A stretch of DNA of 64,000 nt, taken from Clostridiales bacterium. GTDB taxonomy: Bacteria; Bacillota; DSM-16504; Desulfitibacterales; JAICDB01. The translations under genes were made by a program, and so were the position numbers. The DNA lies in assembly GCA_020063565.1 (NCBI GenBank), contig JAICDB010000008.1:103914-167913 (forward strand), given 5' to 3'. The notes beneath the pieces were generated by a model that was not told where the DNA came from, made no database searches, and saw only the letters and a list, made by a program, of their open reading frames with translations. Positions 130-46,578 of the stretch are shown in pieces (the first letter of the stretch is position 1; the number at the start of each line of letters is the position of its first letter).

Positions 130-378
130 AAACCTGAGGCACCCGTAAAAGGGTTTAATAGGGAAATCGGTGAAAATCCGATGCGGTCCCGCCACTGTGA
201 TTGGGGAGCGCCTTGCATTATCCCACTGCCCGGCACTTAATCCGGTATTAACTTTAAGTTTAATCGCTACTAACATCCACGGATGAAAGTATTGAGTAAA
301 CTAATAAGTTGTATTGGATTAAGTGCTGGGTGGGAAGGGGCAAGGCTTGCTGTGAACCAGAGCCAGGAGACCTACCTT
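130..378 (+). ncRNA. Cobalamin riboswitch (copy 1, apparently orphan)
   Basis: Adenosylcobalamin-class aptamer. The B12-box-like core GCGGTCCCGCCACTGTGA lies at about 184-201, the upstream GAGGCACCC and AATAGGGAA segments at about 136-165, and the conserved 3' segment AGCCAGGAGACCT at 361-373. The peripheral arm is enlarged by a 102-nt insert (229-330). A two-state expression platform follows: TTGGGGGTT near 377 can pair with AACCCCCAA near 422, or the latter can form a terminator with GGTTGTGGGGTT. No B12-related gene follows; the next gene is ilvN with its own promoter, behind a second terminator. Aptamer identity is firm, its target is unknown. Confidence 0.88.
229..330. repeat. Invertible-looking 102-nt hairpin insert, orientation A
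   Basis: Fifteen-bp inverted arms (229-243 and 316-330, one G-U wobble) enclose 72 nt (244-315). The 72 nt are the exact reverse complement of 46443-46514 inside the second cobalamin riboswitch, 72 of 72 by eye, while the riboswitch sequence outside the arms runs in the same direction in both copies. The segment sits in a peripheral arm, not in the conserved core. Confidence 0.92.
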
Positions 379-421
379 GGGGGTTTAGTCTACGGTAGAT
401 AGACATATAATCTTGTAAACT

Positions 422-456
422 AACCCCCAACGTATAGGTTGTGGGGTTTAATTTTT
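422..456 (+). terminator. Terminator of riboswitch 1 expression platform
   Basis: AACCCCCAAC and GTTGTGGGGTT form a stem around GTATA, followed by TTAATTTTT. The left arm can instead pair with TTGGGGGTT at about 377-385, giving mutually exclusive antiterminator and terminator. Confidence 0.6.
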
Positions 457-489
457 GCTAAGCTTTAAAAATGATAGCTCTTCAAATTT

Positions 490-532
490 GCCGGTTATGC
501 TTCTCCCCCGGAGCAGTAACCGGCTTTTTTTT
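490..532 (+). terminator. Strong intrinsic terminator
   Basis: GCCGGTTA pairs with TAACCGGC around an inner TGCT/AGCA helix, followed by eight T. It separates the riboswitch from ilvN. Confidence 0.85.
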
Positions 533-539
533 AGAGGAA

Positions 540-556
540 GTTCGAAAAGGAACACG
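540..556. repeat. Partial copy of TTCGAAAAGG repeat
   Basis: GTTCGAAAAGGAACACG matches the left end of the repeats at 10950 and 57142. No right half with CTTTTCGAA is present here. Confidence 0.5.
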
Positions 557-633
557 CTCTATAAGCAACTTTACGAAACTGAGACGTAATTAAGTAAATT
601 GATAAATTCAATTTTTTGTTATTCGTTTTTTTA

Positions 634-662
634 TTGACTTTATTGTAATATAAGATTAAAAT
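634..662 (+). promoter_or_regulatory. Sigma-A promoter of ilvN
   Basis: TTGACT (634-639), 17-bp spacer, TAAAAT (657-662). The predicted start near 669 gives a short leader, so ilvN can be transcribed independently of the upstream riboswitch. Confidence 0.75.
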
Positions 663-702
663 AACAGGCAATACTAAAACTTTTTGTTCAAAGGAGGAGA
701 CT

Positions 703-1197
703 ATGAAGCACACACTAGCGTTACTTGTTGTTGATAGGCCCGCCGTACTATCTCATATTTCGGGATTGATTAGCCGCAGGGCCTTTAATATTGAAAGCAT
801 AGCGGCTGGTTCTACCGAACAGGAGAAGGTCACCAGAATAACCCTGGTAGTCGAATGTGAAGAAGACGAAATCGATCAGGTCATCAACCAACTGGCTAAA
901 TTAGTCGATGTAATAAAGATAGAAAATTTAACTGCTGAAAAAGCTATTATCAGAGAGCTTGCCCTTATAAAAGTAAAGGCGGATTCTGAAAAGCGTTCTG
1001 ACATTGTAGATATAGTAAATATTTTCAGAGCAAAGATAGTTGATGTAAATCGTGAAACCATGGTTATAGAATGTAGCGGGGAAAAGGAAAAAATAGATGC
1101 TTTATCTGAAGTGTTAGCCGAACATGGGATAGTTGAAATAGTAAGGACCGGCAAGATATCCATCTCCAGAAGCCCACTTCCTGTAAAAGATATGTAA
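703..1197 (+). CDS. ilvN: Acetolactate synthase small (regulatory) subunit
   Basis: Regulatory subunit that binds the catalytic IlvB subunit of acetohydroxyacid synthase and gives feedback control by branched-chain amino acids. The 164 aa are the normal length: an N-terminal ACT domain (about residues 4-78, with SHISGLISRRAFNIES near 17-32) and a C-terminal ALS small-subunit domain (about 84-158). ATG 703 follows AAGGAGGAG at good spacing. No ilvB lies beside it, so this is a stand-alone copy; the neighbour downstream is an amino-acid-type transporter. Whether it serves the biosynthetic enzyme or is a free-standing ACT regulator cannot be told from the sequence. Confidence 0.9.
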   Translation: MKHTLALLVVDRPAVLSHISGLISRRAFNIESIAAGSTEQEKVTRITLVVECEEDEIDQVINQLAKLVDVIKIENLTAEKAIIRELALIKVKADSEKRSDIVDIVNIFRAKIVDVNRETMVIECSGEKEKIDALSEVLAEHGIVEIVRTGKISISRSPLPVKDM

Positions 1198-1374
1198 TTT
1201 TTAATTTAAAAAAAATTTTATTACAAAAAAATACATCTCAAAAAGAAGGAAAATCGTCTCAGGACGTAGAATGATGGCGGAAAAGGAGGTGTCAACCTGT
1301 CTATTAGCAATAATTCGTTAGCTTAAAAATTAATTTTTTAAAATAATGCTAATATTAAGGAGGTTTAAAAAGGA

Positions 1375-2880
1375 ATGGCAAGAGAACAATGGGGATCACG
1401 TGTAGGTTTTATTTTAGCTGCTGTTGGTTCAGCTGTAGGTTTGGGTAACATCTGGGGTTTTCCTTACAGGGCTTTCTCTAATGGTGGTGGAGCATTTTTC
1501 ATTCCGTATTTATTTGCGCTTTTAACAGCGGGTATTCCCATTATGATTTTGGAATTATCTATGGGGCAAAAGAACCAGGGCGCTGCACCCTTAACTTTTG
1601 CTAAGCTAAACCGTAAATGGGAATGGCTTGGTTGGATGCAGACTTTTATTAGTTTTGTAATTGCAGTTTACTATGTTGCTATTATAGGTTGGGCTATTGC
1701 ATATTCTTATTTTTCCTTTAGCCAGGCATGGGGTGAAGATACTAAGGGATTCCTATTTGGAAATTATTTGGGTGTTACCAGCAGTCAGTTTGAACTGGGC
1801 GGACTGCAGTTAGGTGTACTTGTTCCATTGATTATTGCCTGGATAGTTATTTATGCTGCTCTGCGCGGTGGTGTTAAGAAAGGTATTGAGTTTGCAAATA
1901 AAATTTTCATGCCGCTTTTAGCGCTTTTCTTGGTAATTATTGCTATTCGTGGAGTAACTTTACCTGGAGCTTCCCAGGGTCTGAATTTCTTGTTTAAGCC
2001 TGATTTCAGCCGTATTTTTGACTTTAACGTATGGACAGCTGCTTACGGTCAGATTTTCTTTAGTTTGAGTATTTGTTTTGCCATTATGATTACTTACTCC
2101 AGCTACCTACCCAAAAAGACAGATATTGTAAACAACGGCTTCATGGTATCGCTTCTTAATTGCAGTTTCAGTCTTCTGGCAGGCTTTGCAGTATTCGGAG
2201 TGCTTGGTTTTATGGCTCAATCTCAAGGTGTTGGAGTACAGGATGTTGCAGCCGGTGGAGTAGGGTTGGCTTTCGTTGTTTTTCCGAAAGCCATTAGCAT
2301 GATGCCTTTTGCTCCCGGATTCTTTGGTTTCTTATTTTTTACTTGCCTGGTATTTGCCGGACTTTCGTCTGCTATATCAATTAACGAAGCGGTACTGTCA
2401 GGATTTATGGATAAATTCTCCGTTTCCAGGAAGAGGGCTGTTAATGTCTACTGTGTTATAGCATTTGTTGTGAGTTTATTGTTTGCAACAGGCGCCGGAC
2501 TCTTAATTTTAGATGTTGTAGACCACTTTATTATGCAGATTGCTATTGTATTTGCTGGATTGATTGAAGTGATTATGGTTGCTTGGTTCTTCAACCTTGA
2601 CAGCATTAAAGACCATATCAACCCCATGTCTGAATTCAAGGTGGGTGCCTGGTGGGACTTCATGCTGAAAATCGTAACTCCGCTTGTGCTGGGGTACATG
2701 GGTGTTAATCAGCTAATTAGTGACCTTACTACTAACTATGGTGAGTATACTACCAGTGCAATAGTGGTATTTGGATGGTTAGTGGTGCTTGGTACATTAG
2801 TTCTTGGTCTAACAATGCAGTTTATTGGATGGAAGGATGAAAAGCTATTAAGTCCTAATGTTCTCAATTCACAATCCTAA
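1375..2880 (+). CDS. Neurotransmitter:sodium symporter (NSS/SNF) family transporter
   Basis: Sodium-coupled symporter of amino acids or related amines in the cytoplasmic membrane, LeuT fold. The 501 aa contain 11-12 hydrophobic segments. The family signature GSAVGLGNIWGFPYR (about residues 18-32), with unwound-helix glycines and Na-site residues, and LELSMGQ (about 60-66) are present. ATG follows AAGGAGG. The gene is followed after 15 nt by a 33-aa single-helix peptide resembling MetS. This two-gene arrangement is known for bacterial methionine/alanine importers (MetP-MetS), so methionine or a small neutral amino acid is the favoured but unproven substrate. Confidence 0.9.
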   Translation: MAREQWGSRVGFILAAVGSAVGLGNIWGFPYRAFSNGGGAFFIPYLFALLTAGIPIMILELSMGQKNQGAAPLTFAKLNRKWEWLGWMQTFISFVIAVYYVAIIGWAIAYSYFSFSQAWGEDTKGFLFGNYLGVTSSQFELGGLQLGVLVPLIIAWIVIYAALRGGVKKGIEFANKIFMPLLALFLVIIAIRGVTLPGASQGLNFLFKPDFSRIFDFNVWTAAYGQIFFSLSICFAIMITYSSYLPKKTDIVNNGFMVSLLNCSFSLLAGFAVFGVLGFMAQSQGVGVQDVAAGGVGLAFVVFPKAISMMPFAPGFFGFLFFTCLVFAGLSSAISINEAVLSGFMDKFSVSRKRAVNVYCVIAFVVSLLFATGAGLLILDVVDHFIMQIAIVFAGLIEVIMVAWFFNLDSIKDHINPMSEFKVGAWWDFMLKIVTPLVLGYMGVNQLISDLTTNYGEYTTSAIVVFGWLVVLGTLVLGLTMQFIGWKDEKLLSPNVLNSQS

Positions 2881-2895
2881 ATAGGAGGTTAAAAT

Positions 2896-2997
2896 ATGAG
2901 CGGTAGTGCAATTGCAATGATGATATTTGCCATGCTAGTACTCTGGGGCGGATCCGCCTATTGTATTAGTATAGCCATGAAGAATAAAGGAATATAA
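2896..2997 (+). CDS. MetS-like small subunit of NSS transporter (33 aa)
   Basis: Thirty-three-residue peptide with one hydrophobic helix (about residues 5-27) and a short basic tail (AMKNKGI). ATG 2896 is preceded by TAGGAGG and lies 15 nt after the symporter stop. Tiny one-helix partners of NSS transporters are established (methionine/alanine importer small subunit, MetS in corynebacteria). Position, size and helix fit that role. A rho-independent terminator follows immediately, closing a two-gene operon. Confidence 0.72.
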   Translation: MSGSAIAMMIFAMLVLWGGSAYCISIAMKNKGI

Positions 2998-3012
2998 AAA
3001 AATTAAATAAAT

Positions 3013-3047
3013 TAAAAAATGAGGCGCCTCAAGCGCCTCATTTTTTA
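3013..3047 (+). terminator. Terminator of NSS operon
   Basis: GAGGCGC...GCGCCTC stem followed by TTTTTT. Confidence 0.9.
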
Positions 3048-3132
3048 TATTTGTTAAAAAAGTCAAAATTAGTAAGGAATAGTCCGCTTAAGTTTTGAAA
3101 AAGCTAATTATAAAAGGAGGGGTTTTAAGAAA

Positions 3133-3246
3133 ATGATTTTTAAACGCGGTGAAAAAATAAGAAGATTTCACTGGATAGGAATGATTCTTTATCCACTGGC
3201 CTTCCTAAAAGGGCTGATTTTAGGTAGAGTTTTAGCTAAAAGATAG
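3133..3246 (+). CDS. Hypothetical 37-aa membrane peptide
   Basis: Small gene: ATG 3133 with AGGAGGGG about 10 nt upstream, ending TAG 3244-3246, followed by a terminator. The product has a basic N-terminus (FKRGEKIRRFHW) and one hydrophobic helix (about residues 14-33), ending AKR. No family is recognised. The good ribosome site and the terminators on either side support it as a real mono-cistronic microprotein rather than chance. Confidence 0.55.
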   Translation: MIFKRGEKIRRFHWIGMILYPLAFLKGLILGRVLAKR

Positions 3247-3251
3247 TTTGT

Positions 3252-3280
3252 GCGGGGTTATTAACCCCCTCCTTTTTTGT
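3252..3280 (+). terminator. Terminator after 37-aa peptide gene
   Basis: GGGGTTA/TTAACCCC stem, then CTCCTTTTTT. Confidence 0.75.
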
Positions 3281-3317
3281 ATTGAGATTTATCTCATAGA
3301 TGATACCGCTTGAAAAA

Positions 3318-4043
3318 TTACGGTCTAAAAGACTCCTTAATTTTCTCTTTTTTAGCTTCGTCCTCTTCTTCTAAATAATACTTTAGGTTATCAAGTCCTA
3401 CTCTTTCAATGAAAGCTGAGAATCTTTCTGCTTTGTTAGCTGTTTCTTTGTAAACTTCCAGTAAGTCTTTGACAATTTGTTTGGTTTCATCTACTGATTT
3501 TTCCGCGAATAGTTCGTCTGCCACCCGTGCTTTTTTACCGGAATTTCCACCAACTACAATTTTATAACCGTTTTTAGAACCAATTAATCCGATGTCTTTA
3601 ACCCAGGACTCTGAGCAAGAGTTAGGACAGCCGCTGACGCCAATTTTAAATTTCCAGGGAAGCTCCATGCCGTGATAAAGCTTATCAAGTTCCATTCCCA
3701 TCCCTACTGCATCCTGTAACCCAACTCTACAAAATGTGGTTCCGGGACAAACCTTTACGCTCCTGACAACTTTACCAATAGCCTGCCCTTTCTCCATTCC
3801 GAGTTCTTCCCAAGCGGCTTCAAGATCTTCCTCTTTGATTCCTACAATTGCTATCCTTTGCGCAGAAGTTACTTTGATTGCTTGCGCTCCGTACTTTTCA
3901 GCAACTTCTGCAATTTTTTTCAGACCGTTTACATCCGTTACTCCGGCAGGCAGATGCGGTACTATGGCATATGTTTCTCTGTCCCTTTGAACTATTGAAC
4001 CTAATTCAGGAATATCTTTCTTTTTTACTTCACCCACTGTCAT
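3318..4043 (-). CDS. Small assimilatory-type sulfite reductase (siroheme/4Fe-4S)
   Basis: Single-subunit redox protein of the low-molecular-weight sulfite/nitrite reductase type, predicted to reduce sulfite or a related oxyanion with a coupled siroheme and [4Fe-4S]. It has a ferredoxin-like half-domain (about residues 10-75), then the paired cysteines CPGTTFC (about 99-105) and GCPNSC (about 138-143) that hold the cluster and siroheme. About 241 aa, typical of this minimal class. Start choice: AAGGAG lies only 2 nt from ATG 4043 but 8 nt from GTG 4037, so translation may begin at 4037; GTG 4046 overlaps the ribosome site. It is divergent from rubrerythrin, and an AT-rich inverted repeat sits upstream of each gene. 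Confidence 0.82.
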   Translation of the reverse strand: MTVGEVKKKDIPELGSIVQRDRETYAIVPHLPAGVTDVNGLKKIAEVAEKYGAQAIKVTSAQRIAIVGIKEEDLEAAWEELGMEKGQAIGKVVRSVKVCPGTTFCRVGLQDAVGMGMELDKLYHGMELPWKFKIGVSGCPNSCSESWVKDIGLIGSKNGYKIVVGGNSGKKARVADELFAEKSVDETKQIVKDLLEVYKETANKAERFSAFIERVGLDNLKYYLEEEDEAKKEKIKESFRP

Positions 4044-4181
4044 CACTCCTTAACTTAATAATAACAATTACTATTATAACATAAAATCCGTTTTCCTCAA
4101 GGTTTTTTGTTCTTACTTTTATTTTTTTTATATTTTTTAAATGATTTCTAGAAAAATTCTGAAAGAGTTCTAAAAAAGATA

Positions 4182-4227
4182 TTGACAAATAAGTTAAAAC
4201 ACCATATAATAATAGCAACAATTATTA
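4182..4227 (+). promoter_or_regulatory. Rubrerythrin promoter with AT-rich operator-like repeat
   Basis: TTGACA (4182-4187), 17 bp, TATAAT (4205-4210). TAATAAT-7-ATTATTA (4207-4227) overlaps the -10. A similar element, TAATA...TATTA, lies at about 4057-4075 beside the divergent sulfite reductase. Rubrerythrins are commonly controlled by PerR-type repressors, so a peroxide-responsive operator is plausible. The promoter is firm, the operator is inference. Confidence 0.7.
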
Positions 4228-4269
4228 ATAACTACATAAAAGATAATAAACTAAAGGAGAGGATATTTA

Positions 4270-4788
4270 ATGAGCAAGAAGACTATTGAAAACCTAAAGG
4301 CTGCATTTGCAGGGGAGAGTCAAGCTAGAAATAAGTATACATTTTTTGCAAAGGTTGCCCGTAAAGAAGGATATCCAAGAATTGCAGATGTTTTTGAAGA
4401 AGCTGCTGAAAATGAAAAGAAACATGCAGAAATTATTCTGCGTCTATTAGAAGGAATTGGAGACACCAAGGAAAACCTCAAAGCAGCAATTGCAGGAGAA
4501 ACATATGAATATACAGACATGTATCCTGAATTTTTAAAGGTTGCTGAAGAAGAGGGTGAAGAAGAAGCTGCTGCTTATTTCCGTAGCGTTATTGTAGCAG
4601 AAGATAACCACGCTGCCAAGTTTAAGGAAATGCTGGATAAACTGGAAAATGGCAAGCTTTTTAAAACAGACAATGAAAATATTAAATGGCGCTGCAGAGT
4701 TTGCGGATATATTTATGAAGGAAATGAACCGCCTGAAGAATGTCCTTTATGCAAACACCCCAGGGAGTTTTATGATCCTACCCACTAA
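4270..4788 (+). CDS. rbr: Rubrerythrin
   Basis: Cytoplasmic non-heme diiron peroxidase that detoxifies hydrogen peroxide in anaerobes. It has an N-terminal four-helix ferritin-like domain with ligands near E16, E49/H52 and E111/H114, and a C-terminal rubredoxin-like domain with C142, C145, C158 and C161. The 172 aa are slightly shorter than many rubrerythrins, but both sites are complete. AAGGAGAGG precedes ATG. It has a consensus promoter and a following terminator shared with a convergent ferredoxin, a plausible electron donor. Confidence 0.95.
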   Translation: MSKKTIENLKAAFAGESQARNKYTFFAKVARKEGYPRIADVFEEAAENEKKHAEIILRLLEGIGDTKENLKAAIAGETYEYTDMYPEFLKVAEEEGEEEAAAYFRSVIVAEDNHAAKFKEMLDKLENGKLFKTDNENIKWRCRVCGYIYEGNEPPEECPLCKHPREFYDPTH

Positions 4789-4802
4789 ATTTACTTTCTA
4801 TA

Positions 4803-4835
4803 TCAAAGCCACCGTTTCAAACGGTGGCTTTATTT
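4803..4835. terminator. Bidirectional terminator between rbr and ferredoxin
   Basis: AAAGCCACCGTTT and AAACGGTGGCTTT form a perfect stem with A and T tracts on both sides; it can serve both convergent genes. Confidence 0.85.
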
Positions 4836-4855
4836 CCTGGATAAATCTTTTTATT

Positions 4856-5062
4856 TTATTCCTCTGTAATGGCTTCTACAGGGCATGATTCCAGTCCTTC
4901 GCGTGCACATTCCTCGAGATCTTCCGGAACATCCTCATTCACATACTTTGATATTGCCAAACTTTCGTCGTCATTCCATTCGTAAACTTCTGGACATGTT
5001 TCTATACAGTTTCCGCATGCTATGCAAAGGTCGTCATCTACTTTTGCTCTCAATGCCTTCAC
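4856..5062 (-). CDS. Ferredoxin, single [4Fe-4S]
   Basis: Soluble low-potential electron carrier, 68 aa. C13, C16, C19 and C60 (followed by P61) are the expected cluster ligands. C23 and C52 sit where monocluster ferredoxins of the Thermotoga/Desulfovibrio gigas type carry a disulfide. Very acidic. The ribosome site AAGAGGAGG precedes ATG 5062. Monocistronic and convergent with rubrerythrin. Confidence 0.9.
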   Translation of the reverse strand: MKALRAKVDDDLCIACGNCIETCPEVYEWNDDESLAISKYVNEDVPEDLEECAREGLESCPVEAITEE

Positions 5063-5265
5063 CTCCTCTTAAAGTGAAACTTCTTTTAGTAAGGATTGAA
5101 GTGATTAATTTGCTTCTCTAGTTTGTGGTAAATACCGGAAAAGTATACGCACTGACTTATAAAAATGTAAAATTTATATCTAAAAGAAGGTAATTGTTTT
5201 CTTTTGTCGTATTTCAATAGTAGTTGTCTAGAACTTTTTTATTTATACATGAAGGTGTTGAAAGC

Positions 5266-6474
5266 ATGAGTAGGAAAGAAAATTGCCTCTTTAGCGGTTT
5301 GATTGCATCTTTGTCCCTTGCCCTTGACCTTGAAGAAAACAGGAAGTTGTACCATGCCTGGAGGGTTGCCTTATTATCCTGGCCCATCTCAAAGATAATT
5401 TGCCCCCGGGAAGCGGGTATAATATTTTATGGAGCTCTGCTGCATGATATAGGCGCCATAGGAATGGATGATCATATAGTGCATAAGGCAGTGCATGGAA
5501 CTACCGATGCCATAGAAATAAGGCGTCATCCTCAAAGAGGCGCTGCCATTATAAAAATTATTCCTGAACTTAAACATGCGGCGAGATATATTTTGGAACA
5601 CCATGAAATGTGGAATGGTAGCGGTTATCCAAAGGGGTTAAAGGGTAATGAAATTAGTCTGGGCGCTCAGATTATAGCAGCAGCTGATTTGTTTGATGTT
5701 ATTTTAAGACGAGTGGGGAAAATACCTTTAGAAGGAATGTTAAATAAAATTAGGTCTTATGTGAGTAGTTATATTTCTGAGGAAATCTTTGGAGTTTTAT
5801 TACAGGTGTTGACAACTGACTTTTATAATCAGTTGCAGAGTGATCAGGGACTGGAAGAGGCTATGAAAGAGGTTTTGAAAAAGGTCCCACCTCCTTCTGA
5901 AAAGCTTAATGATACTACTTCTACCACTTCTGCCCTTGCGGCAGTCATTGATGCTAAACACCAGTATACTGCCGGGCACTCTGAAAGGGTGGCGCTCTAT
6001 GCACTTAATATAGGAAGTGAGATGGGATTAAATTTAAATGAAATGGAAAAACTCCAAAGGGCCGGCTTACTTCACGATTTAGGGAAAATAGGTGTTCCCA
6101 GATCCATTCTAGATAAGCCAGGAGGCCTGACAAAAGAAGAATTTGGAATTATAAAGAAGCATCCCCAGGGAACCATAGATATCCTGTCCATGATAGATGT
6201 TTTTAATGACATTGCTTACATAGCGGGAGGACATCATGAGAGGGTAGACGGTCAAGGATATCCATATGGCTTGTATAGAGATGAAATACCTTTAATGGGA
6301 AGAATCTTAGCTGTTGCAGATGCTTTTGATGCAATAACCAGTAACAGGCCATATCAACCTACACGGAACAAGGAAGAAGCATTTCGCATTTTACAAAAAA
6401 ATTGTGGCTCGCAGTTTGATAAAAAGGTGGTTGAAGCCGCTTTGGAAGGTTTGAAGGATGTAGACCTTATTTAA
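5266..6474 (+). CDS. Tandem HD-GYP domain protein (putative cyclic-dinucleotide phosphodiesterase)
   Basis: 402-aa cytoplasmic protein with two HD-type domains. The first (about 25-165) has HDIGA at 60-64 and NGSGYP at 117-122. The second (about 205-400) is canonical: HDLGKIG at 250-256, HHER near 293-296 and GQGYP near 299-303. HD-GYP domains hydrolyse cyclic di-GMP. The Lys of HDxGK is Ala in the first domain, suggesting that domain is regulatory or degenerate. No receiver or PAS input domain is present. ATG 5266 is chosen because GAAGGTG lies 8 nt upstream; an earlier in-frame ATG at 5224 has no ribosome site. Confidence 0.85.
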   Translation: MSRKENCLFSGLIASLSLALDLEENRKLYHAWRVALLSWPISKIICPREAGIIFYGALLHDIGAIGMDDHIVHKAVHGTTDAIEIRRHPQRGAAIIKIIPELKHAARYILEHHEMWNGSGYPKGLKGNEISLGAQIIAAADLFDVILRRVGKIPLEGMLNKIRSYVSSYISEEIFGVLLQVLTTDFYNQLQSDQGLEEAMKEVLKKVPPPSEKLNDTTSTTSALAAVIDAKHQYTAGHSERVALYALNIGSEMGLNLNEMEKLQRAGLLHDLGKIGVPRSILDKPGGLTKEEFGIIKKHPQGTIDILSMIDVFNDIAYIAGGHHERVDGQGYPYGLYRDEIPLMGRILAVADAFDAITSNRPYQPTRNKEEAFRILQKNCGSQFDKKVVEAALEGLKDVDLI

Positions 6475-6499
6475 ATTCAACAATTAGCAGGTGAGTATA

Positions 6500-7135
6500 A
6501 TGGCAAAGGAATTTTACACAGTTGCAAGAAAGGCTGAAAAGGAAATTATTATAAAAAAGTCTCGCTTCATAGCATATGTTGCTCCAACTGCAACTGAAAA
6601 AGATGCTGAAGAGTTTATTGCAGAAATCAAAAAAAAGCATAAGGATGCCACTCATAATGTTTCAGCTTTTATTGTTGGCAGGGAAAAACAAGTACAAAGG
6701 GCAAATGATGATGGAGAACCGAATGGTACTGCCGGCAAGCCTGTCCTGGAAGTTCTTAAAAATAAAGAATTGACAGATGTTACTGTTGTAGTCACCCGCT
6801 ATTTCGGAGGAATAAAGCTTGGGGCAGGCGGTCTTATCAGGGCCTATGGAAAAAGCGCCATAGAGGGAATTGAGGCAGCCGGTGAAGTTGTAAGAAAGCT
6901 CTTTAGACTTGTTGCAATAGAAATGGATTATTCCATGTTTGGAGCTGTGCAAAGAACGGTTGAAGATTTAGACTTGCCAATTGATGGAATTGATTATACA
7001 GATAAGGTTACCATGAAGGTACTAGTTCCTGAAGACGATTCGGATAATTTTATCAAGCGTATGATAGATTTTACTAATGGCAATGCAATAATAGAAAAGG
7101 AAGATACGCGCTATTTGAATTTCTCCAGAAATTAA
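6500..7135 (+). CDS. YigZ/IMPACT family protein
   Basis: Conserved protein of the UPF0029/YigZ-IMPACT family, about 211 aa. The N-terminal domain carries the signature RYFGGIKLGAGGLIRAYG (about residues 100-117) and a small C-terminal domain follows. Eukaryotic IMPACT affects translation control; the bacterial role is poorly defined. ATG 6500 is preceded by AGGTGAG; a GTG at 6491 overlaps that site and is less likely. Probably co-transcribed with the upstream HD-GYP gene (26-nt gap). Confidence 0.9.
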   Translation: MAKEFYTVARKAEKEIIIKKSRFIAYVAPTATEKDAEEFIAEIKKKHKDATHNVSAFIVGREKQVQRANDDGEPNGTAGKPVLEVLKNKELTDVTVVVTRYFGGIKLGAGGLIRAYGKSAIEGIEAAGEVVRKLFRLVAIEMDYSMFGAVQRTVEDLDLPIDGIDYTDKVTMKVLVPEDDSDNFIKRMIDFTNGNAIIEKEDTRYLNFSRN

Positions 7136-10942: not shown

Positions 10943-10949
10943 AGTGATT

Positions 10950-11034
10950 GTTCGAAAAGGAGCACGATAGACACGAGAAGTCAAGCCAACGCAGAAATTC
11001 GAAGTGGATTTCGCGCGGACTTTTCGAACATCCT
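10950..11034. repeat. TTCGAAAAGG repeat, long form, in yqeC-yqeB gap
   Basis: TTCGAAAAGG...CTTTTCGAA inverted ends enclose about 60 nt. The ends GTTCGAAAAGG(A)GCACG and GGACTTTTCGAA(C/T)ATCCT match the short form at 57142. It occupies most of an intergenic space just before a ribosome site. Confidence 0.65.
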
Positions 11035-11056
11035 CTTAAAGTAGGGAGGGAAAGAA

Positions 11057-39654: not shown

Positions 39655-39680
39655 TAAGCCAAGATTATTTAGGTGCGCAC

Positions 39681-39804: not shown

Positions 39805-39942
39805 TCATTTAGCCTTAAACTCGCTGCAGCAGGGAGATAGGAATTTTTTCTCCGATTTAGCCATACAAAATTGCTTCCTATGGAGATACCAGTAGCAGGA
39901 GAGACACTGACATTTTAAGTTTTTGGTACAATACCGCCACAC
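39805..39942 (-). CDS. Cys-rich microprotein B (45 aa)
   Basis: Short gene with GTG start (39942) 10 nt after AAGGAG, TGA at 39805-39807. The core KCQCLSCYWYLHRKQFCMAK (10-29) and the end PCCSEFKAK are closely shared with microprotein A, 41 nt upstream on the same strand. Six of its seven cysteines line up (CxC..C, C, CC). No family is recognised. The spaced Cys pattern suggests metal binding, for example zinc, or a redox role. It looks like a tandem duplicate with its own ribosome site. Confidence 0.65.
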   Translation of the reverse strand: MWRYCTKNLKCQCLSCYWYLHRKQFCMAKSEKKFLSPCCSEFKAK

Positions 39943-39983
39943 AACTCGATCTCTCCTTAAAATTTTTTATGACCTCCTAAAAA

Positions 39984-40112
39984 TTATTTTGGCTTATACT
40001 CGTCGCAACAGCTGCTGTTCAGTGCATGCTTTTCAAACTTAGCCATGCAAAACTCTTTTCGGAGAAGGTACCAATAACAAGAATGACACTGACATCTTAA
40101 TTTTTTAGTCAT
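39984..40112 (-). CDS. Cys-rich microprotein A (42 aa)
   Basis: ATG 40112 with AAGGGGG 8 nt upstream; TAA at 39984. The product has C7, C9 and C12 (CQCHSC), C22, and C35, C36, is basic, and contains YWYLLRKEFCMAKFEKHA (13-30). The paralogue downstream keeps every one of these cysteines and the YWYL.RK.FCMAK core, so the frame is under selection rather than chance. A strong promoter (TTGACG-17-TACAAT) lies 95 nt upstream. Function unknown. Confidence 0.7.
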   Translation of the reverse strand: MTKKLRCQCHSCYWYLLRKEFCMAKFEKHALNSSCCDEYKPK

Positions 40113-40212
40113 AATGAAAACCCCCTTGTAAAAGTAATCATAAATTATAAGTATTTATTATAGAGAACATCGCTGCTTTTAAAGTTCAAATTTTGCTTAC
40201 CTTTGTAATACT

Positions 40213-40241
40213 ATTGTATTAAGGATTTGAAGAAACGTCAA
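40213..40241 (-). promoter_or_regulatory. Promoter of the Cys-rich microprotein pair
   Basis: On the minus strand, TTGACG (40241-40236), 17 bp, TACAAT (40218-40213). It leaves an untranslated leader of about 95 nt before microprotein A. Confidence 0.7.
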
Positions 40242-40316
40242 TATAGTTTGAATATTTAGTAATTTTAAAACACTTTTGTTATTATAAGCACTACTTATGA
40301 ATAGGGAATTAAATAA

Positions 40317-40352
40317 AAAAAGCATGAAACCTTTTTGAGTTCCATGCTTTTT
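40317..40352 (-). terminator. Terminator of tRNA operon
   Basis: Minus-strand AAAGCATGGAACTC...GGTTTCATGCTTT hairpin followed by T tract, immediately after tRNA-Val. Confidence 0.8.
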
Positions 40353-40428
40353 TGGTGGGCGGTACAAGGCTCGAACTTGTGACCCCCTGCTTGTAAGGCA
40401 GGTGCTCTCCCAACTGAGCTAACCACCC
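40353..40428 (-). tRNA. tRNA-Val (TAC)
   Basis: 76 nt including encoded CCA. Acceptor GGGTGGT/ACCGCCC, anticodon loop CTTACAA, GTTCGAGCC T-arm, normal D-arm. Last gene of the tRNA operon. Confidence 0.93.
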
Positions 40429-40460
40429 CTAATCGAAGTTCGATGTGTGATGTTCGAAAT

Positions 40461-40528
40461 GCGATATCTATCTCGAGATTACCTCTTGAATTTTTTCGCA
40501 CCTCGGATCTCGAACTTCTCATATCGCA
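40461..40528. repeat. 68-bp intergenic repeat, copy 1
   Basis: Begins GCGATATC and ends ATATCGCA, giving 7-8 bp terminal inverted repeats. Identical to 40593-40660 except one base (T/C). It fills the gap between tRNA-Val and tRNA-Glu. Confidence 0.9.
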
Positions 40529-40530
40529 AA

Positions 40531-40594
40531 TGGTGACCCGTAGGGGATTCGAACCCCTGTTACCGGCGTGAAAGGCCGGTGTCTTAGACCCCGC
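40531..40594 (-). pseudogene. tRNA-Glu (TTC), 5' end missing
   Basis: The 3' part is intact: CCA, acceptor strand ACGGGTC, T-arm GGTTCGAATCC, anticodon stem-loop with CTTTCAC (TTC). The first roughly 14 nt (expected acceptor strand GACCCGT and 5' D-stem) are absent. The sequence passes instead straight into the 68-bp repeat at GCGGGGTCTAAGAC, sharing GCG with the repeat end. The RNA could not form an acceptor stem. Either a real disruption or an assembly collapse across the repeat. Confidence 0.8.
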
Positions 40595-40660
40595 GATATC
40601 TATCTCGAGATTACCTCTTGAATTTTTTCGCACCTCGGACCTCGAACTTCTCATATCGCA
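40593..40660. repeat. 68-bp intergenic repeat, copy 2 (abuts broken tRNA-Glu)
   Basis: Same sequence and orientation as copy 1 with one mismatch. Its left end replaces the 5' end of tRNA-Glu; its right end is next to tRNA-Lys. Confidence 0.9.
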
Positions 40661-40661
40661 G

Positions 40662-40737
40662 TGGTGAGCCATCCAGGATTCGAACCTGGGACACCCTGAT
40701 TAAAAGTCAGGTGCTCTGCCGACTGAGCTAATGGCCC
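40662..40737 (-). tRNA. tRNA-Lys (TTT)
   Basis: 76 nt with CCA. Acceptor GGGCCAT/ATGGCTC, D-arm GCTCAGTCGGCAGAGC, anticodon loop CTTTTAA, GGTTCGAATCC. Confidence 0.95.
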
Positions 40738-40742
40738 ATAAC

Positions 40743-40819
40743 TGGCAGGGGTGGCAGGATTTGAACCCACGACACGCGGATTTGGAGTCCGCTGCTCTAC
40801 CAGACTGAGCTACACCCCT
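40743..40819 (-). tRNA. tRNA-Trp (CCA)
   Basis: 77 nt with CCA tail. Acceptor AGGGGTG/CACCCCT, anticodon loop CTCCAAA, T-loop GGTTCAAATCC. First gene of the tRNA operon. Confidence 0.95.
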
Positions 40820-40859
40820 GTGTTAGCATTGATTTATCTCTTCCTCATCACGCTTATAT

Positions 40860-40888
40860 ATACTAACATGTGTCTATTAATTTGTCAA
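40860..40888 (-). promoter_or_regulatory. Promoter of tRNA operon
   Basis: Minus strand TTGACA (40888-40883), 17 bp, TAGTAT (40865-40860), about 40 nt before tRNA-Trp. Confidence 0.75.
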
Positions 40889-40923
40889 CTTTTTATCTTT
40901 AGTAAAAAGCGGAAAAATAGAAA

Positions 40924-41045
40924 CCACTCTCTTACTTAAGAGAGTGGCCTCTATTTAAAAGGGGGAGTCATAGTCCATCACAGCTAGACCGGATTATAAG
41001 TCCGGAATCAGCTCCGGACAATTTCTCCCGCCTGTATTATTACTA
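40924..41045. other. Intergenic hairpins between tRNA operon and MFS gene
   Basis: A perfect CCACTCTCTTA/TAAGAGAGTGG hairpin (about 40924-40947). Further on, GGGGGAG near 40961 could pair with CTCCC near 41025, enclosing a CCGGATTATAAGTCCGG hairpin. No coding frame. Either downstream structure for the minus-strand MFS gene or a small RNA; undecided. Confidence 0.35.
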
Positions 41046-41104
41046 TATCCAAGGAGTGCTTAATATATCCCTGATTTTTTGTGGTAATAACAAGCTAAAT
41101 TTCT

Positions 41105-42325
41105 CTAATTTCCTTGTAAAAGTCCGGGCGGTAATAATACCTTTTCTTTAATAAATACAAATGCAATGACAGTAATTATTATAACTAGAAGTGCTGCGCC
41201 AAGGAATAGCGGTGTTTTACCCAGTTCTGTAACCAGTCCAAAGGTAGGAGGACCGATTGCAACTCCGAAAAAACGGGTTGATCCATAGAGGCAGGTTATT
41301 ATACCCCTTTCTTCTGTAGCGGCGGCGCTTGTTATTAATGTATTTACCGCAGGTAAAACTATTCCGGTACCTATTCCCATTACAATTAAGGCTATAAACA
41401 AAAAATAAATATTTGTGATAAATGCTATTACTGCCATTGCGCCTGTTACTCCTAGTAACCCTAAAACTATGGCAATTTTTAAGTGATGTGATGCCTGTTT
41501 GGACAGATACACTCCGGACAGGTAGGAAGTAAGCGCCATGGAAGCTACAGGTATGGCAATTAAAAGTCCGGTAGAAAAACCTCTTATACCATATTTTTGT
41601 TCTAAAACATCAGATATATAGCTTAAAGTTCCAAAGAGAATAAAAAGAACAACACCGCCGGCTAAAAAGCTGGAAATGAGAGAAACTCCCTTTTCTTTAA
41701 AAATTTCCTTTAACTTTGTCAGGTACTTGCCTGGATTTTGGCGCTTTTTATTTTCCTGCGGTTCCTTGACTATCAACCAGACGGCAAATGCTACAGGGAT
41801 TGCTAAAAAGCCGTAAACAAAAAATGGTGCAAACCAGATAATTAGACCCAAAGCTGCACCGGAAACCGGACTGACAACCTTTCCCAAACCATTTGCTGCT
41901 TCTAGAAGACCTAAAGCCTTTGTCCGTTCCTTACTTTGAAAAATATCGCCGATTAGTGCCATTGCAAGTTGATATGTTCCTCCTGCACCTATTCCCTGAA
42001 TAATTCTTCCTATCAGAAGAACATTATATGGTTTTGCCAGAAGTAAGGAGGCAAAACCTGCTATAAGTCCCCCTAACCCGTAAATAATTAAGGCCGGGGC
42101 CATGATAGCTTTACGGCTGAATCTATCTGAGAGATAACCTGCTATTGGTATGACGAGCCCAGCAGGAATGGAGAAAGCAGTGATAATAAGTCCTACCTGA
42201 AAAAGTGTAATATTCATTTTTGCTTTCATTGTTGGTAGAAGCGGAATCAACATTGAATTACCCAGAACCATGATGAAAGGAACGGTACTTAAAACTATAA
42301 AGGGTAAAATCATCTGTTTTTTCAT
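41105..42325 (-). CDS. MFS transporter, drug:H+ antiporter type
   Basis: 406 aa, 12 predicted membrane helices. Motif A-like GYLSDRFSRKAIM (about 63-75) between helices 2 and 3, and IGRIIQGIGAGG (about 106-117), are typical of multidrug-type major facilitator proteins. Substrate unknown. Start ATG 42325 is preceded by GGGGGAAATAAA on the minus strand. Monocistronic and divergent from yqhV. Confidence 0.9.
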   Translation of the reverse strand: MKKQMILPFIVLSTVPFIMVLGNSMLIPLLPTMKAKMNITLFQVGLIITAFSIPAGLVIPIAGYLSDRFSRKAIMAPALIIYGLGGLIAGFASLLLAKPYNVLLIGRIIQGIGAGGTYQLAMALIGDIFQSKERTKALGLLEAANGLGKVVSPVSGAALGLIIWFAPFFVYGFLAIPVAFAVWLIVKEPQENKKRQNPGKYLTKLKEIFKEKGVSLISSFLAGGVVLFILFGTLSYISDVLEQKYGIRGFSTGLLIAIPVASMALTSYLSGVYLSKQASHHLKIAIVLGLLGVTGAMAVIAFITNIYFLFIALIVMGIGTGIVLPAVNTLITSAAATEERGIITCLYGSTRFFGVAIGPPTFGLVTELGKTPLFLGAALLVIIITVIAFVFIKEKVLLPPGLLQGN

Positions 42326-42436
42326 TTTATTTCCCCCGTTTTACTTTTAATTTTTGGAAGTTAATAGTACATATTCTAGCGATTATTAGCTTTTCATATA
42401 ATCTAATAATTAATTCAATATAAGGGGAGGAAAATA

Positions 42437-42709
42437 ATGTTTTTTATAAAGGACAAGTATGTTTTTGGAATGGCTTTTTTGCGAATCATTTCCGGTATAA
42501 TAGAGTTTTCTGCGGCAATGGTGATGTTAAAACTTAATAGAGTCGAACATGCCTTAAAAATAAATGCTGTACTTGCAGCAGTTGGCCCAATAGTGTTAAT
42601 GAGTGTAATGGCTCTGGGGCTTGTAGGTCTGGCAGGAAGGGTTTCGCCTGGAAAAATTTTAATTATAATTATAGGTGTACTGATTATTTTTTATGGTGTA
42701 CAAAAATAA
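42437..42709 (+). CDS. yqhV: YqhV family membrane protein (DUF2619)
   Basis: 90 aa with three hydrophobic segments. N-terminal DKYVFGMAFLRIISGIIE and a conserved MLKLNRVEHALKINA stretch match the small YqhV family of Bacillus and Clostridia. Function unknown; in spore formers yqhV lies near the spoIIIA genes, but not here. ATG preceded by GGGGAGGAAAATA. Confidence 0.8.
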   Translation: MFFIKDKYVFGMAFLRIISGIIEFSAAMVMLKLNRVEHALKINAVLAAVGPIVLMSVMALGLVGLAGRVSPGKILIIIIGVLIIFYGVQK

Positions 42710-42738
42710 ATTTGCTATTTGAGGTAGGTGCTTAAGTA

Positions 42739-43437
42739 ATGGAAATACATGTAATTGAAAAAGCAGAAAAAATAAGTAATTATGATTTACAAGGAAGTCA
42801 GCTGGTTGCCATCGATGTTTTAAGGGCCACTTCCACCATGGTTACAGCTTTTAAAAATGGAGCTCTGAAAATTATACCCGTTATGAAAACACAGCAAGCT
42901 TTTAATATAAAAAAGAGTAATTCACAGGTAATACTGGGTGGTGAAAGGGGCGGGGTAAAGATTTCCGGTTTTCACTTAGGAAATTCTCCTGCAGAATATA
43001 CTCCCGAAAATGTATACGGCAAAACAATTGTTATGACCACTACCAACGGAACAAGGCTCATCCAGAATTCACTGGCTGCAGAATCAATTTATATAGGGTG
43101 TCTTTTAAATGCCAAAGCAGTAGCAGAAAAGCTAAACAAAACACGGGTTTTTCTTGCTTGTGCAGGAACCAGGGGGTATTTTTCACCGGAAGATTTTATG
43201 GCGGCAGGTGCCATCGCCTGGCACCTAATCCAAAGTAAAAATGTTGCTTTAAACGAAAAGGCAAAAAGAGCTGTAGAATTTTTCAAAGGAGTAAAAAACC
43301 GGGCAGAATTCCTCAAACTGTTTCCCCACGGCAATCTTTTGATACAAAGGGGGTTTGAAAAAGATATTTCATACTGCTGCCAGCTCGATACAATACCGGT
43401 AGTACCCAGGTATTACTGCGGTTCTTTGTATGTTTAA
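42739..43437 (+). CDS. comB: 2-phosphosulfolactate phosphatase family (ComB-like)
   Basis: 232 aa, ComB family. Motifs: AIDVLRATSTMVTA (24-37), LGGERGG (about 66-72), TTTNGTR near 100-106 and ACAGTRG near 140-146. Family members hydrolyse 2-phosphosulfolactate in coenzyme M synthesis; many bacteria without that pathway carry homologues of unclear role. GAGGTAGGTG precedes ATG; 29 nt after yqhV. Confidence 0.87.
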   Translation: MEIHVIEKAEKISNYDLQGSQLVAIDVLRATSTMVTAFKNGALKIIPVMKTQQAFNIKKSNSQVILGGERGGVKISGFHLGNSPAEYTPENVYGKTIVMTTTNGTRLIQNSLAAESIYIGCLLNAKAVAEKLNKTRVFLACAGTRGYFSPEDFMAAGAIAWHLIQSKNVALNEKAKRAVEFFKGVKNRAEFLKLFPHGNLLIQRGFEKDISYCCQLDTIPVVPRYYCGSLYV

Positions 43438-43522
43438 GTTTTAAGAGGTAATCATGGTAAGTCTAATTTAGTGTGTACCTGCATATATTTGTAAGCAGAA
43501 ATTTGTTTTTGGGGCGGATTTG

Positions 43523-43978
43523 ATGAATACAACTACTTTGATGATGTTATTAATCCTTTTGCTAGGAATACTTGGAAGATCGAATATTATTGCTGCTGCT
43601 GCAGCAATTTTACTTCTTGTTCAATTTACAAACCTGCAAAGATTTTTTCCAATGTTGGAAAGGCGCGGGCTGGAACTGGGGCTTCTTTTTCTTATTATTT
43701 CCGTACTGGTTCCCTTTGCGGCAGGTAAGGTTCCTGTAAAGGATATACTCACCAGTTTTTTTACCATTCCCGGTGTAATTGCCATCTTAAGCGGAGCGCT
43801 TGCCACCCATCTAAATTGCAAAGGACTTGAGATGCTGCAAAGTACACCGCAACTTATGATAGGGTTGGTTGTAGGATCGATAATTGGGATAACCTTGCTG
43901 GGAGGAATACCTGTGGGGCCTTTAATGGCAGGGGGAATAGCGGCGCTTTTGATGCAGATTGTGAATTTATTCAGGTGA
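43523..43978 (+). CDS. UPF0756/DUF441 membrane protein (YeaL-like)
   Basis: 151 aa, about four to five membrane segments; RGLELGLLFLIISVLVPFA (about 48-66) and a glycine-rich C-terminus GGIPVGPLMAGGIAAL fit UPF0756. Function unknown. ATG 43523 is chosen (GGGGCGG 5 nt upstream) over TTG 43520. Followed by a terminator. Confidence 0.85.
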   Translation: MNTTTLMMLLILLLGILGRSNIIAAAAAILLLVQFTNLQRFFPMLERRGLELGLLFLIISVLVPFAAGKVPVKDILTSFFTIPGVIAILSGALATHLNCKGLEMLQSTPQLMIGLVVGSIIGITLLGGIPVGPLMAGGIAALLMQIVNLFR

Positions 43979-44007
43979 GATAATTACATAATATATTTAT
44001 TAAAATA

Positions 44008-44037
44008 ACACTACCTAGTTAGGGTGGTGTTTTTTAT
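44008..44037 (+). terminator. Terminator after UPF0756 gene
   Basis: AACACTACC...GGTGGTGTT-type stem followed by TTTTT. Confidence 0.75.
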
Positions 44038-44150
44038 TGTTCAAAGAGTTCGTATAGAAATTATAGCAATGAACTATTTCCAGAGAGGAATTTACAATTT
44101 ATTGCAGAATACTTTATGCAAATATTTTACTTCATCAGGAGGTAAGAACT

Positions 44151-44852
44151 TTGAATTATGTTGACCTGGTGTTGATTATTGTATTGGCCCTGGGGGCATT
44201 TAAAGGATACAGAAGGGGATTTATTTATACCCTTGGAGGCCTCTTTGGCTGGATTGTCAGTTTAGTTATAGCTATGATGTACAGCTCAAATTTTAAGATT
44301 TTTTTGGATGAAAAGCTGATGTTATCAAATAAATTGGGAGAATGGCTTGGAGAGCATCTTCCTCTGCCTGATTTTGCACAGAGTGCGGGTTCAAGTGTGA
44401 GTGAAGTACAGCAATCCATTAATAATATGCCTTTGCCAGGCTTTATGAAAGAATCGCTTACCGAACAGGTAATAATCTTAAATGCCACCGGTGACGGTTC
44501 CGCAAGCTTAGCACAGGTTGTAGGCTATGGACTTGCAGATATAATTGTTAAGGGAATAGCTTTTTTGATATTGTTTTTTATAGTTTCATTTATTATTAAA
44601 TTGTTAATAATGCTTTTTAGCAGGGGTGTCAATGCAACCGTCTTTGGCGGTGTTAACCGTTTGGGAGGCCTCATAATGGGAACTGTGATAAATGCCTGCA
44701 TAATGGCTGTAGTTGTAGGTGTCTTATACCCGCTTTTAACGGCAGGTATGCCGGCTAACCCGGTGGGGCAGGAGGTAGAAACATCATTTTTAACACCAAT
44801 CCTGCTTAATATCTTTGCTGTTATCAGCAGTCATATTTTTGGCTTCATATAA
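44151..44852 (+). CDS. CvpA family membrane protein
   Basis: 233 aa, four hydrophobic segments. N-terminal NYVDLVLIIVLALGAFKGYR and later VNRLGGLIMGTVI match CvpA/colicin V production proteins, linked in other bacteria to envelope homeostasis. A soluble loop lies at about 50-110. TTG start at 44151 with AGGAGGT 7 nt upstream; no in-frame ATG fits. Confidence 0.85.
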   Translation: MNYVDLVLIIVLALGAFKGYRRGFIYTLGGLFGWIVSLVIAMMYSSNFKIFLDEKLMLSNKLGEWLGEHLPLPDFAQSAGSSVSEVQQSINNMPLPGFMKESLTEQVIILNATGDGSASLAQVVGYGLADIIVKGIAFLILFFIVSFIIKLLIMLFSRGVNATVFGGVNRLGGLIMGTVINACIMAVVVGVLYPLLTAGMPANPVGQEVETSFLTPILLNIFAVISSHIFGFI

Positions 44853-44969
44853 TAATAGATACAATAGCATGGCTGGGTAAAGGTGCATAAGTAAATCAAA
44901 AAAGAGACATATTTCCGCCCTTGTCCAAATATCTTGTAATAAAGTTCCTTTACAAGAGGTGGAATTTTT

Positions 44970-46253
44970 ATGTCTGAGAGAAGTGTTCGTTATGGAGATT
45001 TTGTTTACTGGGGATTGTTGTTGGCGGTATCTGCTCCGGTGTTAATATTAGGCGTATTTCTCGTTCTTCTTTTAACATTACCTGGCGCAAATTTGCCTGC
45101 AGGAGGTTTTTCCGTACTTATAATAGCTAAAGCTGTATTTTACGGAGGCGGTGTGCTGCTTATCCTCCTGGGAAATATTGTCCGAAAAAATTATATTGCC
45201 ACAATTCTGGCCTTACTTGCATTTATGGCGGTTTTTTTTCAATTATTTCCCCCTCAAATCTCTCCTTCAGGGATGGATGTAGTCTTAGGACTTCCCGGTT
45301 TAGCGCTTGTCCTTTTGGCGCTGGCTGTCTGGCTGCCTGACTTTCAAAACAGGAATTGTTACTGTTGTCTGGCTTTTGGTATTCTGTGCGGCCTGGTGGT
45401 AGCCTACCAGCTTTTTGAAGTACTTGCACTGGTTTTTTTACCATATGCTCTGCCATCCTTTTTGGAGTCCCATTCCTGGCTAAACATATTTGAAATATGG
45501 GGAAATTGGATTGTTTACTTTTCTTTAATCTTTAAACTATTGAAAGGTTGGACATATCAAAATGAGTCCTTAACTTTTAGCGGCCTCTATTTTAAACCGT
45601 TCCTTGGAATTACAGCTCTGGCAATAGTATTTGCCATGCTTTTGATGACAGGTCTATTTATGCAGCTTGAAAAGGGCCTGGCAACTGTTGAGTACGTAAT
45701 TCAACCAACGGGTAATGTTGATAAACTTGATATTCTGCTACCGGTAGCGCAGTTTAAAGATGAAGGAGAGGTAATTGCAGCAAATGATTTTATAGCCCTA
45801 TATGCCGAAAGAAAAGAAAGGTTAAATGCCAAAATAGAGTTTGTACAAACAGAATACGGTACGATGCTTCATTTTATTCATAATGAACCGGTCAAAGATA
45901 AGGTTGTTATCCGGGGCCAACTGGAATCACAGAACCTGGGCTGGTATCTCGGCAGGGAAGAGGTGCCTGTAGTCTTAAGCCCAAGAGTGATTGATGAGGA
46001 TTGGACTCGGGCCACTGAACTTCCTGTAGTTCCTGAACATAATGCACTTTATACTGTAGTTAACTGTAAAAGTGGCGGAGGAGCAGTCAGCTTAAGCTAC
46101 TGCCTTGAATTGGTGGTTAAGGGAGTTAAACCGAGCGCTTACCAGCAGGTATTTACTGCATACCTTCCCTTTAATTACCTCGAAGGATTTAAGATTAAGG
46201 AGGGCTGGCAGCTGGTTCCCATGATTGAAGAAATACTGGTGCGGGAGATGTGA
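44970..46253 (+). CDS. Hypothetical membrane protein, 427 aa
   Basis: No family recognised. The N-terminal half (about 1-235) has about seven hydrophobic helices; the first five are leucine/valine-rich. The C-terminal half (about 240-427) is hydrophilic and looks beta-rich, probably on the outer face. A CYCC cluster lies in the loop near residues 130-133. ATG 44970 has AAGAGGTGG upstream. It stands alone just before the B12 riboswitch, with no operon partner. Confidence 0.7.
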   Translation: MSERSVRYGDFVYWGLLLAVSAPVLILGVFLVLLLTLPGANLPAGGFSVLIIAKAVFYGGGVLLILLGNIVRKNYIATILALLAFMAVFFQLFPPQISPSGMDVVLGLPGLALVLLALAVWLPDFQNRNCYCCLAFGILCGLVVAYQLFEVLALVFLPYALPSFLESHSWLNIFEIWGNWIVYFSLIFKLLKGWTYQNESLTFSGLYFKPFLGITALAIVFAMLLMTGLFMQLEKGLATVEYVIQPTGNVDKLDILLPVAQFKDEGEVIAANDFIALYAERKERLNAKIEFVQTEYGTMLHFIHNEPVKDKVVIRGQLESQNLGWYLGREEVPVVLSPRVIDEDWTRATELPVVPEHNALYTVVNCKSGGGAVSLSYCLELVVKGVKPSAYQQVFTAYLPFNYLEGFKIKEGWQLVPMIEEILVREM

Positions 46254-46275
46254 GTTAAACTGACCAAATAATACC

Positions 46276-46304
46276 TTGTATTTCAGTAGCTGATATTGTA
46301 AAAT
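46276..46304 (+). promoter_or_regulatory. Promoter of riboswitch-alpha-ribazole salvage operon
   Basis: TTGTAT (46276-46281), 17 bp, TAAAAT (46299-46304), about 25 nt before the aptamer. Confidence 0.6.
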
Positions 46305-46327
46305 ACTTATAAGATTAATATGAGTAA

Positions 46328-46578
46328 CTGCTATAGGTGCCCTTGTATAAGGGAGAATAGGGAATCGGGTGAGAATCCCGAGCGGTCCCGCCACTGTGAT
46401 TGGGGAGCGCCTTGCATTATGCCACTGCCCAGCACTTAATCCAATACAACTTATTAGTTTACTCAATACTTTCATCCGTGGATGTTAGTAGCGATTAAAC
46501 TTAAAGTTAATACCGGATTAAGTGCTGGGTGGGAAGGGGCAAGGAATGCTGTGAACCGGAGCCAGGAGACCTGCCTAT
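46328..46578 (+). ncRNA. Cobalamin riboswitch (copy 2) upstream of alpha-ribazole salvage genes
   Basis: Same aptamer as copy 1: TAGGTGCCC, GAATAGGGAA, GCGGTCCCGCCACTGTGA and GAGCCAGGAGACCTGCC are all present, with a perfect TCGGGTGAGAATCCCGA hairpin. The peripheral arm holds the same 102-nt insert, reversed. The downstream terminator (46606) and a competing CATGAA/TTCATG hairpin (about 46592-46614) form the expression platform. It is predicted to switch off cblS, the ECF S-component and the A/T genes when B12 is sufficient. Confidence 0.93.
46428..46529. repeat. Invertible-looking 102-nt hairpin insert, orientation B
   Basis: Perfect 15-bp arms (46428-46442, 46515-46529) bound 72 nt (46443-46514) that are the exact reverse complement of 244-315. 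Flanking riboswitch sequence is in the same orientation in both copies. Confidence 0.92.

Follow-up and report, generated by a model that had tools for sequence, protein, structure and literature searches.

A dispersed hairpin element occurs with oppositely oriented loops in two cobalamin riboswitches of a Clostridiales bacterium

Results

Two cobalamin riboswitches carry the same hairpin with opposed loops

A 64,000-nucleotide stretch of DNA from a Clostridiales bacterium (contig JAICDB010000008.1, positions 103,914 to 167,913; referred to as the window; the riboswitches and hairpin parts described below lie on its + strand) harbors two cobalamin riboswitches that carry the same hairpin with its loop in opposite orientations. 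The loop at 244-315 is the reverse complement of the loop at 46443-46514 at 72 of 72 positions, whereas in the same direction just 44/72 positions match, and chance is excluded as the source of this match. The exact loop flip between inverted repeats, proposed in an original prediction made from the sequence, was thereby borne out. The arm that contains the loop is an inserted hairpin element and not an intrinsic part of the riboswitch. For its history we favor, with some reserve, insertion, tract exchange and a single in-place inversion of the loop by template switching or arm exchange, without a dedicated invertase.

Both aptamers gave full-length matches to the covariance model RF00174 above its gathering cutoff of 31.5 bits. 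Aptamer 1 (120..393, 97.7 bits) contains the hairpin in the orientation common to the other homologous-loop riboswitches, and aptamer 2 (46318..46592, 108.8 bits) is located 5' of a 257-aa open reading frame (ORF) and an ECF-type transporter/CbiQ gene set identified with Pfam. Copy 1 of the element has a length of 102 nt (229..330) and is composed of a left arm (229..243, CCCGGCACTTAATCC), the loop in its presumably ancestral orientation (A to B; 244..315, L079) and a right arm (316..330, GGATTAAGTGCTGGG). Copy 2, also 102 nt long (46428..46529), is composed of a left arm (46428..46442, CCCAGCACTTAATCC), the loop in the flipped, presumably derived orientation (46443..46514, L080) and a right arm (46515..46529, GGATTAAGTGCTGGG). 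The predicted 15-bp inverted repeats are perfect only in the second locus, as the arms of copy 1 match at 14/15 positions (CCCGGCAC versus GTGCTGGG). The 102-nt arm as a whole is a quasi-palindrome, in which arms of 50 nt are 74% complementary.

When the loop of one copy was un-flipped, the tracts 183..345 and 46382..46544 differed at only 2 of 163 nt (positions 222 and 232), whereas in the 60 nt beyond each tract end the ungapped match was 29/60 and 35/60. The flanks proximal to the element are identical at 44/45 (left) and 18/20 positions in this pair, compared to 33-41 and 11-16 positions in other riboswitch pairs. The drop of identity outside the tract indicates that a local tract recently came to be held in common, and not that the entire riboswitch was recently duplicated. 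The near-identity that had been claimed around the arm consequently applies to the 163-nt tract but not to the whole aptamers, while a recent origin of the flip was supported.

Downstream of riboswitch 1, a terminator-like hairpin and a second hairpin (about 489-532) are found within 394-532, and no ORF of at least 80 aa is present on the + strand before position 703, which makes it a possible orphan riboswitch. The 257-aa ORF between riboswitch 2 and the transporter genes (46689-47459) had no match in Pfam or NCBIfam.

Polarity of the flip and its predicted effect

A comparison of loop orientation with related genomes, as had been suggested, could be carried out in part: the closest genomes available, which belong only to the same order, did not yield the element in a DNA search, and polarity was derived from paralogues instead of relatives. 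The loops of riboswitches L079, L082 and L087 share one orientation and L080 is opposite. Counts of G-U pairs on the transcribed strand and on its complement were 5/0, 4/2, 6/1 and 6/1 for the unflipped riboswitch arms and 0/4 for the flipped arm. Since the direction of the homologous loops and the G-U pairing agree, the loop at 46443-46514 is, as judged from these sequences, the flipped and derived copy.

Folding was predicted to yield -48.2 kcal/mol for the unflipped arm and -42.1 kcal/mol for the flipped one, with the outer 15 bp retained. As these outer base pairs are kept and the aptamer with the flipped loop is the one that scores higher against RF00174, no functional damage is evident. 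According to this modeling the flip is probably near neutral for B12 sensing, because the outer 15-bp stem survives in the RNA, with some inner pairs lost.

The hairpin is dispersed in the genome of the bacterium

The assembly to which the window belongs (G000) comprises 2.36 Mb in 29 contigs and is 80.8% complete. A search with the 102-nt arm detected more copies, some of them not in riboswitches, and a covariance model found at least 21 loci of this approximately 100-nt hairpin element. Its ends in this genome read CCCRGCACTTA...TAAGTGCYGGG, and a gapped pattern of the arm ends found 15 paired sites, compared to 0 for the reversed-pattern control. In 18 aligned copies ACTTA...TAAGTG and the outer GG were invariant at a mean column identity of 57%, and the loop was variable. 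As in miniature inverted-repeat transposable elements, the copies are scattered, here over 21 loci, and their terminal inverted repeats are conserved, the arms being near-invariant. A target-site duplication was not seen in the inspected flanks, which are paired and not direct repeats.

Of the eight RF00174 matches of the genome, five carry the element, always in the same peripheral arm, and these five riboswitches are 274-292 nt long because of the insert, whereas the cobalamin aptamers of relatives mostly measure 160-236 nt. Riboswitch L009 has a short loop and L010 retains an arm-like remnant. One further copy (L090) is located at the tip of P12, a variable stem of RNase P RNA (RF00010, E=1e-103), and the remaining copies are found chiefly in an intergenic repeat about 150 bp long, termed F1, where they at times replace its apical hairpin. 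The proposal that the riboswitch arm as such is an invertible unit was not upheld, as the element also resides in RNase P RNA and intergenic repeats and occurs in opposite orientations outside riboswitches too.

Full or partial matches to repeat F1 (GTTCGAAAAGGAGCACG...CGCGCGGACTTTTCGAAC) number in the dozens in this genome, and the phylum genome G046 has one copy at 83%. In the window F1 is present at 10946-11037, plus a remnant at 538-560. The F1 copies L058, L059 and L060 have the left half of one hairpin element in common (to CAGACAATTTGCCTT), followed by differing deletion endpoints. At L061 (G000:C10:66800-67400) a cobalamin-riboswitch-like sequence apparently lies between two F1 copies, as if F1 carried or flanked it. 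Two copies ending in TCCGGCACT, L143 (G000:C17:40396-40495) and L144 (G000:C27:27269-27367), are located outside F1 and any Rfam family; the outer flanks of L144 look complementary, and its host may be an undescribed structured RNA. Among tRNA genes of the window, a 68-nt sequence occurs twice in the region 40461-40660, the two copies being 132 nt apart and 99% identical; a truncated tRNA-like match lies at 40542-40590.

Copies with common ends sit on stem tips of structured RNAs across the phylum

A sample of 399 genomes of the phylum was searched with relaxed ends (CCGGCRCTYA...TRAGYGCCGG). Perfect-arm copies were detected in 20 of them, the genome described here and 19 others, while the reversed control gave 0/399; the highest copy number (47) was found in genome G101. 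The ends common across genomes are CCGGCACTYA. Retrieved copies were located in 16S rRNA (L166, L167, L168, L208), in 23S rRNA (L157, L164, L197 and the G101 operon), in RNase P RNA (L154, L155, L160, L191, L200) and in cobalamin riboswitches (L149, L162, L187), and the other retrieved copies matched no Rfam family. As judged by flank sequence, the riboswitch inserts share one site between CCACTG and GGGAAGG, and the P12 site of RNase P RNA is filled by elements with unrelated loops in six genomes. One rRNA operon of G101 contains five inserts, of which a structure alignment placed one at the tip of 16S helix 6 and another within the 23S stem that follows ACAAGCAGUC, which we take to be the helix 25 region (E. 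coli numbering).

For 68 copies the pairing between left and right flanks (-6.31) was better than after permutation (-4.95, sd 0.38; 0/200 permutations as good), which is consistent with a location on stem tips. The insert is an extra stem-tip hairpin that is missing from most relatives, and the same ends are found inside rRNA helices, as is typical of rRNA intervening sequences (IVS). The common ends on stem tips of rRNA, RNase P RNA and riboswitches indicate a mobile hairpin similar to rRNA IVS. In the open-access literature, a full-text search for the arm sequence returned only unrelated papers. With TTAA-type arms, viral contigs gave 0 matches and the genome contig scan a sole match, L028 from Coriobacteriia, which has an unrelated loop and was taken as chance. 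A plasmid search gave no useful match.

Loop orientation is mostly kept between comparable copies

Loops were aligned in context orientation and formed two homology groups. In group a, L079, L087, L082, L006, L007 and L008 run in the same direction and L080 and L078 are reversed; in group b, L081, L083, L086, L088 and L089 run in the same direction and L091, L085 and L094 are reversed. Matched flanks together with opposite loops were found for L079/L080 (100%), L078/L007 (88%) and L081/L091 (68%). As the latter two pairs lie outside riboswitches, a flip that serves as a riboswitch-specific switch is rejected. Across all copies, 33 pairs have flanks that match and loops that are homologous; 26 of these pairs have the same and 7 the opposite orientation. 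Six of these seven trace to the three cases above, and the seventh (L185/L186) has ambiguous flanks and was not counted as a flip event, as this conflicts with both members matching L181. The agreement in 26/33 pairs points to an inversion that is recurrent but rare, and not to rapid switching.

One longer copy encodes a GIY-YIG nuclease domain

In a 301-nt insert in the 23S rRNA of G101, the arms CCGGCACTCAATGGTC...GACCATTGAGTGCCGG enclose a ribosome-binding site followed by an ORF of 82 aa that matches the GIY-YIG domain (PF01541, E=7.9e-14). In another genome the same 23S site holds an insert of 103 nt (L164), too short for such an ORF. This single case suggests that the short hairpins are the non-autonomous counterparts of elements that code for a nuclease. 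Two other candidates were dropped: a 650-nt putative long copy on contig C25 overlaps part of a coding region, and for a Y1 (IS200/REP-type) transposase as the mover there were two partial matches, one less than 400 bases from a contig end, with no link to the arms.

Discussion

In the history that we favor, a hairpin element with the ends YCCGGCACTYA...TRAGTGCCGGR, functionally similar to an rRNA IVS, was inserted at the tip of a stem that the RNA already had, in riboswitches one peripheral stem; its position and the aptamer scores show that it lengthens the host stem and leaves the RNA core intact. It is strongly suggested that the two riboswitches then recently exchanged a stretch of about 160 bp containing the element, after which the 72-nt loop at 46443-46514 would have inverted once in place. 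Template switching between the 15-nt arms, or some other exchange between them, is the likeliest cause, either while the DNA was replicated or as part of that same conversion event. Template switching, which the original prediction had considered, remains a live mechanism: the loop is exactly inverted, its length and flanks are kept and the arms pair. At arm position 4 copy 1 has G...T and copy 2 has A...T, and the loop flip and the G to A change of the arm (CCCGGCAC...GTGCTGGG to CCCAGCAC...GTGCTGGG) could stem from one switch; a separate arm substitution explains this equally well, because L082 likewise has A...T. The spread of the family is probably driven by a nuclease in longer relatives, as the one GIY-YIG case suggests.

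Several points weigh against this history. Published template-switch loop inversions span 4 to 8 nt, far below 72 nt (PMC8794818). The G-U polarity argument uses four related arms, and the energies of L087 point the opposite way. The GIY-YIG link depends on one element, and a scan of 1.49 Mb (63%) of the own genome yielded no long nuclease-coding form. Moreover, elements whose loops are unrelated often come to occupy the same site, as in RNase P P12 and in L083 versus L092, which makes re-insertion in the opposite orientation a real alternative. The element would then have jumped or been copied into the second riboswitch arm without any inversion in place, for which we see a modest chance. The dispersal of the family and the reuse of identical sites speak for such an independent insertion, as does the presence of group a and group b elements in both orientations within the intergenic repeat. 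However, the homogenized 163-nt tract spans the element, so that it most simply arrived together with the tract, and target-site duplications were not seen.

The original prediction had also offered an inverton, in which a recombinase acting on the shared arms would flip the loop reversibly, as in phase variation. The arms are conserved at many loci and the loops are not, as expected for the sites of one common enzyme, and three opposite-orientation pairs occur in a single genome. Nevertheless, orientation is retained in most comparable pairs, and at matching sites of other genomes it hardly ever differs; G304 and G214, which have several sampled copies at such sites, show no flip. A search with PF00239 found one full serine recombinase of 501 aa on another contig (C27) and no small invertase, tyrosine recombinases not being surveyed, and the loop lacks an evident promoter or switch logic. 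An inverton is hence improbable, and a programmed invertase unlikely. Even less credible is an assembly artefact with one locus mis-oriented, although repeated elements and inverted repeats can mislead assemblers and this incomplete genome is split into 29 contigs. The base that distinguishes the two loci, G or A at position 4 of the arm, is only 11 nt away from the loop, and loop direction is therefore tied to the locus in every k-mer of more than about 13 that spans the left junction. A spurious junction would be missing from the reads, and the other opposite pairs are not assembler copies, since they differ by 12-32%.

More broadly, we tentatively propose that hairpins with CCGGCACTYA ends may form one still-active mobile class that homes in on the tips of hairpins, also in structured RNAs that are essential. 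Its parent might encode a single-domain, structure-specific GIY-YIG nuclease that aids the short forms, its arms would recombine and loop orientation would turn over, with the flipped arm as a recent snapshot; we regard this as possible but doubtful. One 11-nt end sequence ties together rRNA IVS, an enlarged RNase P helix, oversized cobalamin riboswitches and intergenic hairpin repeats, oddities that are usually treated apart, and makes stems of riboswitches and ribozymes landing sites for mobile hairpins. The family also offers a handle on the movement of such inserts, possibly by a nuclease together with copying at the tips of hairpins, and on the turnover of their loops. With the twin riboswitches, inversion by template switching can be tested in a natural setting on a loop far larger than those reported so far.

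Small, recurrent inversions between hairpin arms are known from plastids, where they sit in intergenic DNA, unlike the element inserted in a bacterial riboswitch described here. Loop inversions by template switching are documented in RNA hairpins (PMC8794818), and as in our case the loop is inverted between pairing arms and the stem is kept. A paired stem change can accompany them, to which the G/A at arm position 4 might correspond, its polarity being ambiguous because L082 also has A-T. In contrast to those cases, the loop analyzed here is internally palindromic besides being larger. Miniature inverted-repeat elements and mitochondrial double-hairpin or repetitive hairpin elements (PMC2800124, PMC4478555) are similarly short, dispersed and hairpin-forming with conserved ends, but our sites are stem tips of functional RNAs and show no target-site duplication. 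The closest counterparts described so far are rRNA IVS (PMC4990558) and the expansion segments of 5S rRNA (Stepanov and Fox 2021, PMC7812874). The expansion segments are hairpins inserted into a structured RNA in Clostridia and their relatives, with near-identical inserts elsewhere in some genomes, in a study limited to 5S rRNA. An IVS such as that in helix 45 of Coxiella 23S rRNA is a stem-forming insertion at a helix tip, patchily distributed and sometimes with a small ORF. Members of the present family, as placed by alignment, sit like rRNA IVS at 16S helix 6 and in the 23S helix 25 region; unlike rRNA IVS, they join 16S, 23S, RNase P RNA, cobalamin riboswitch and intergenic inserts by one end sequence, and the only ORF seen encodes a GIY-YIG nuclease and not S23p.

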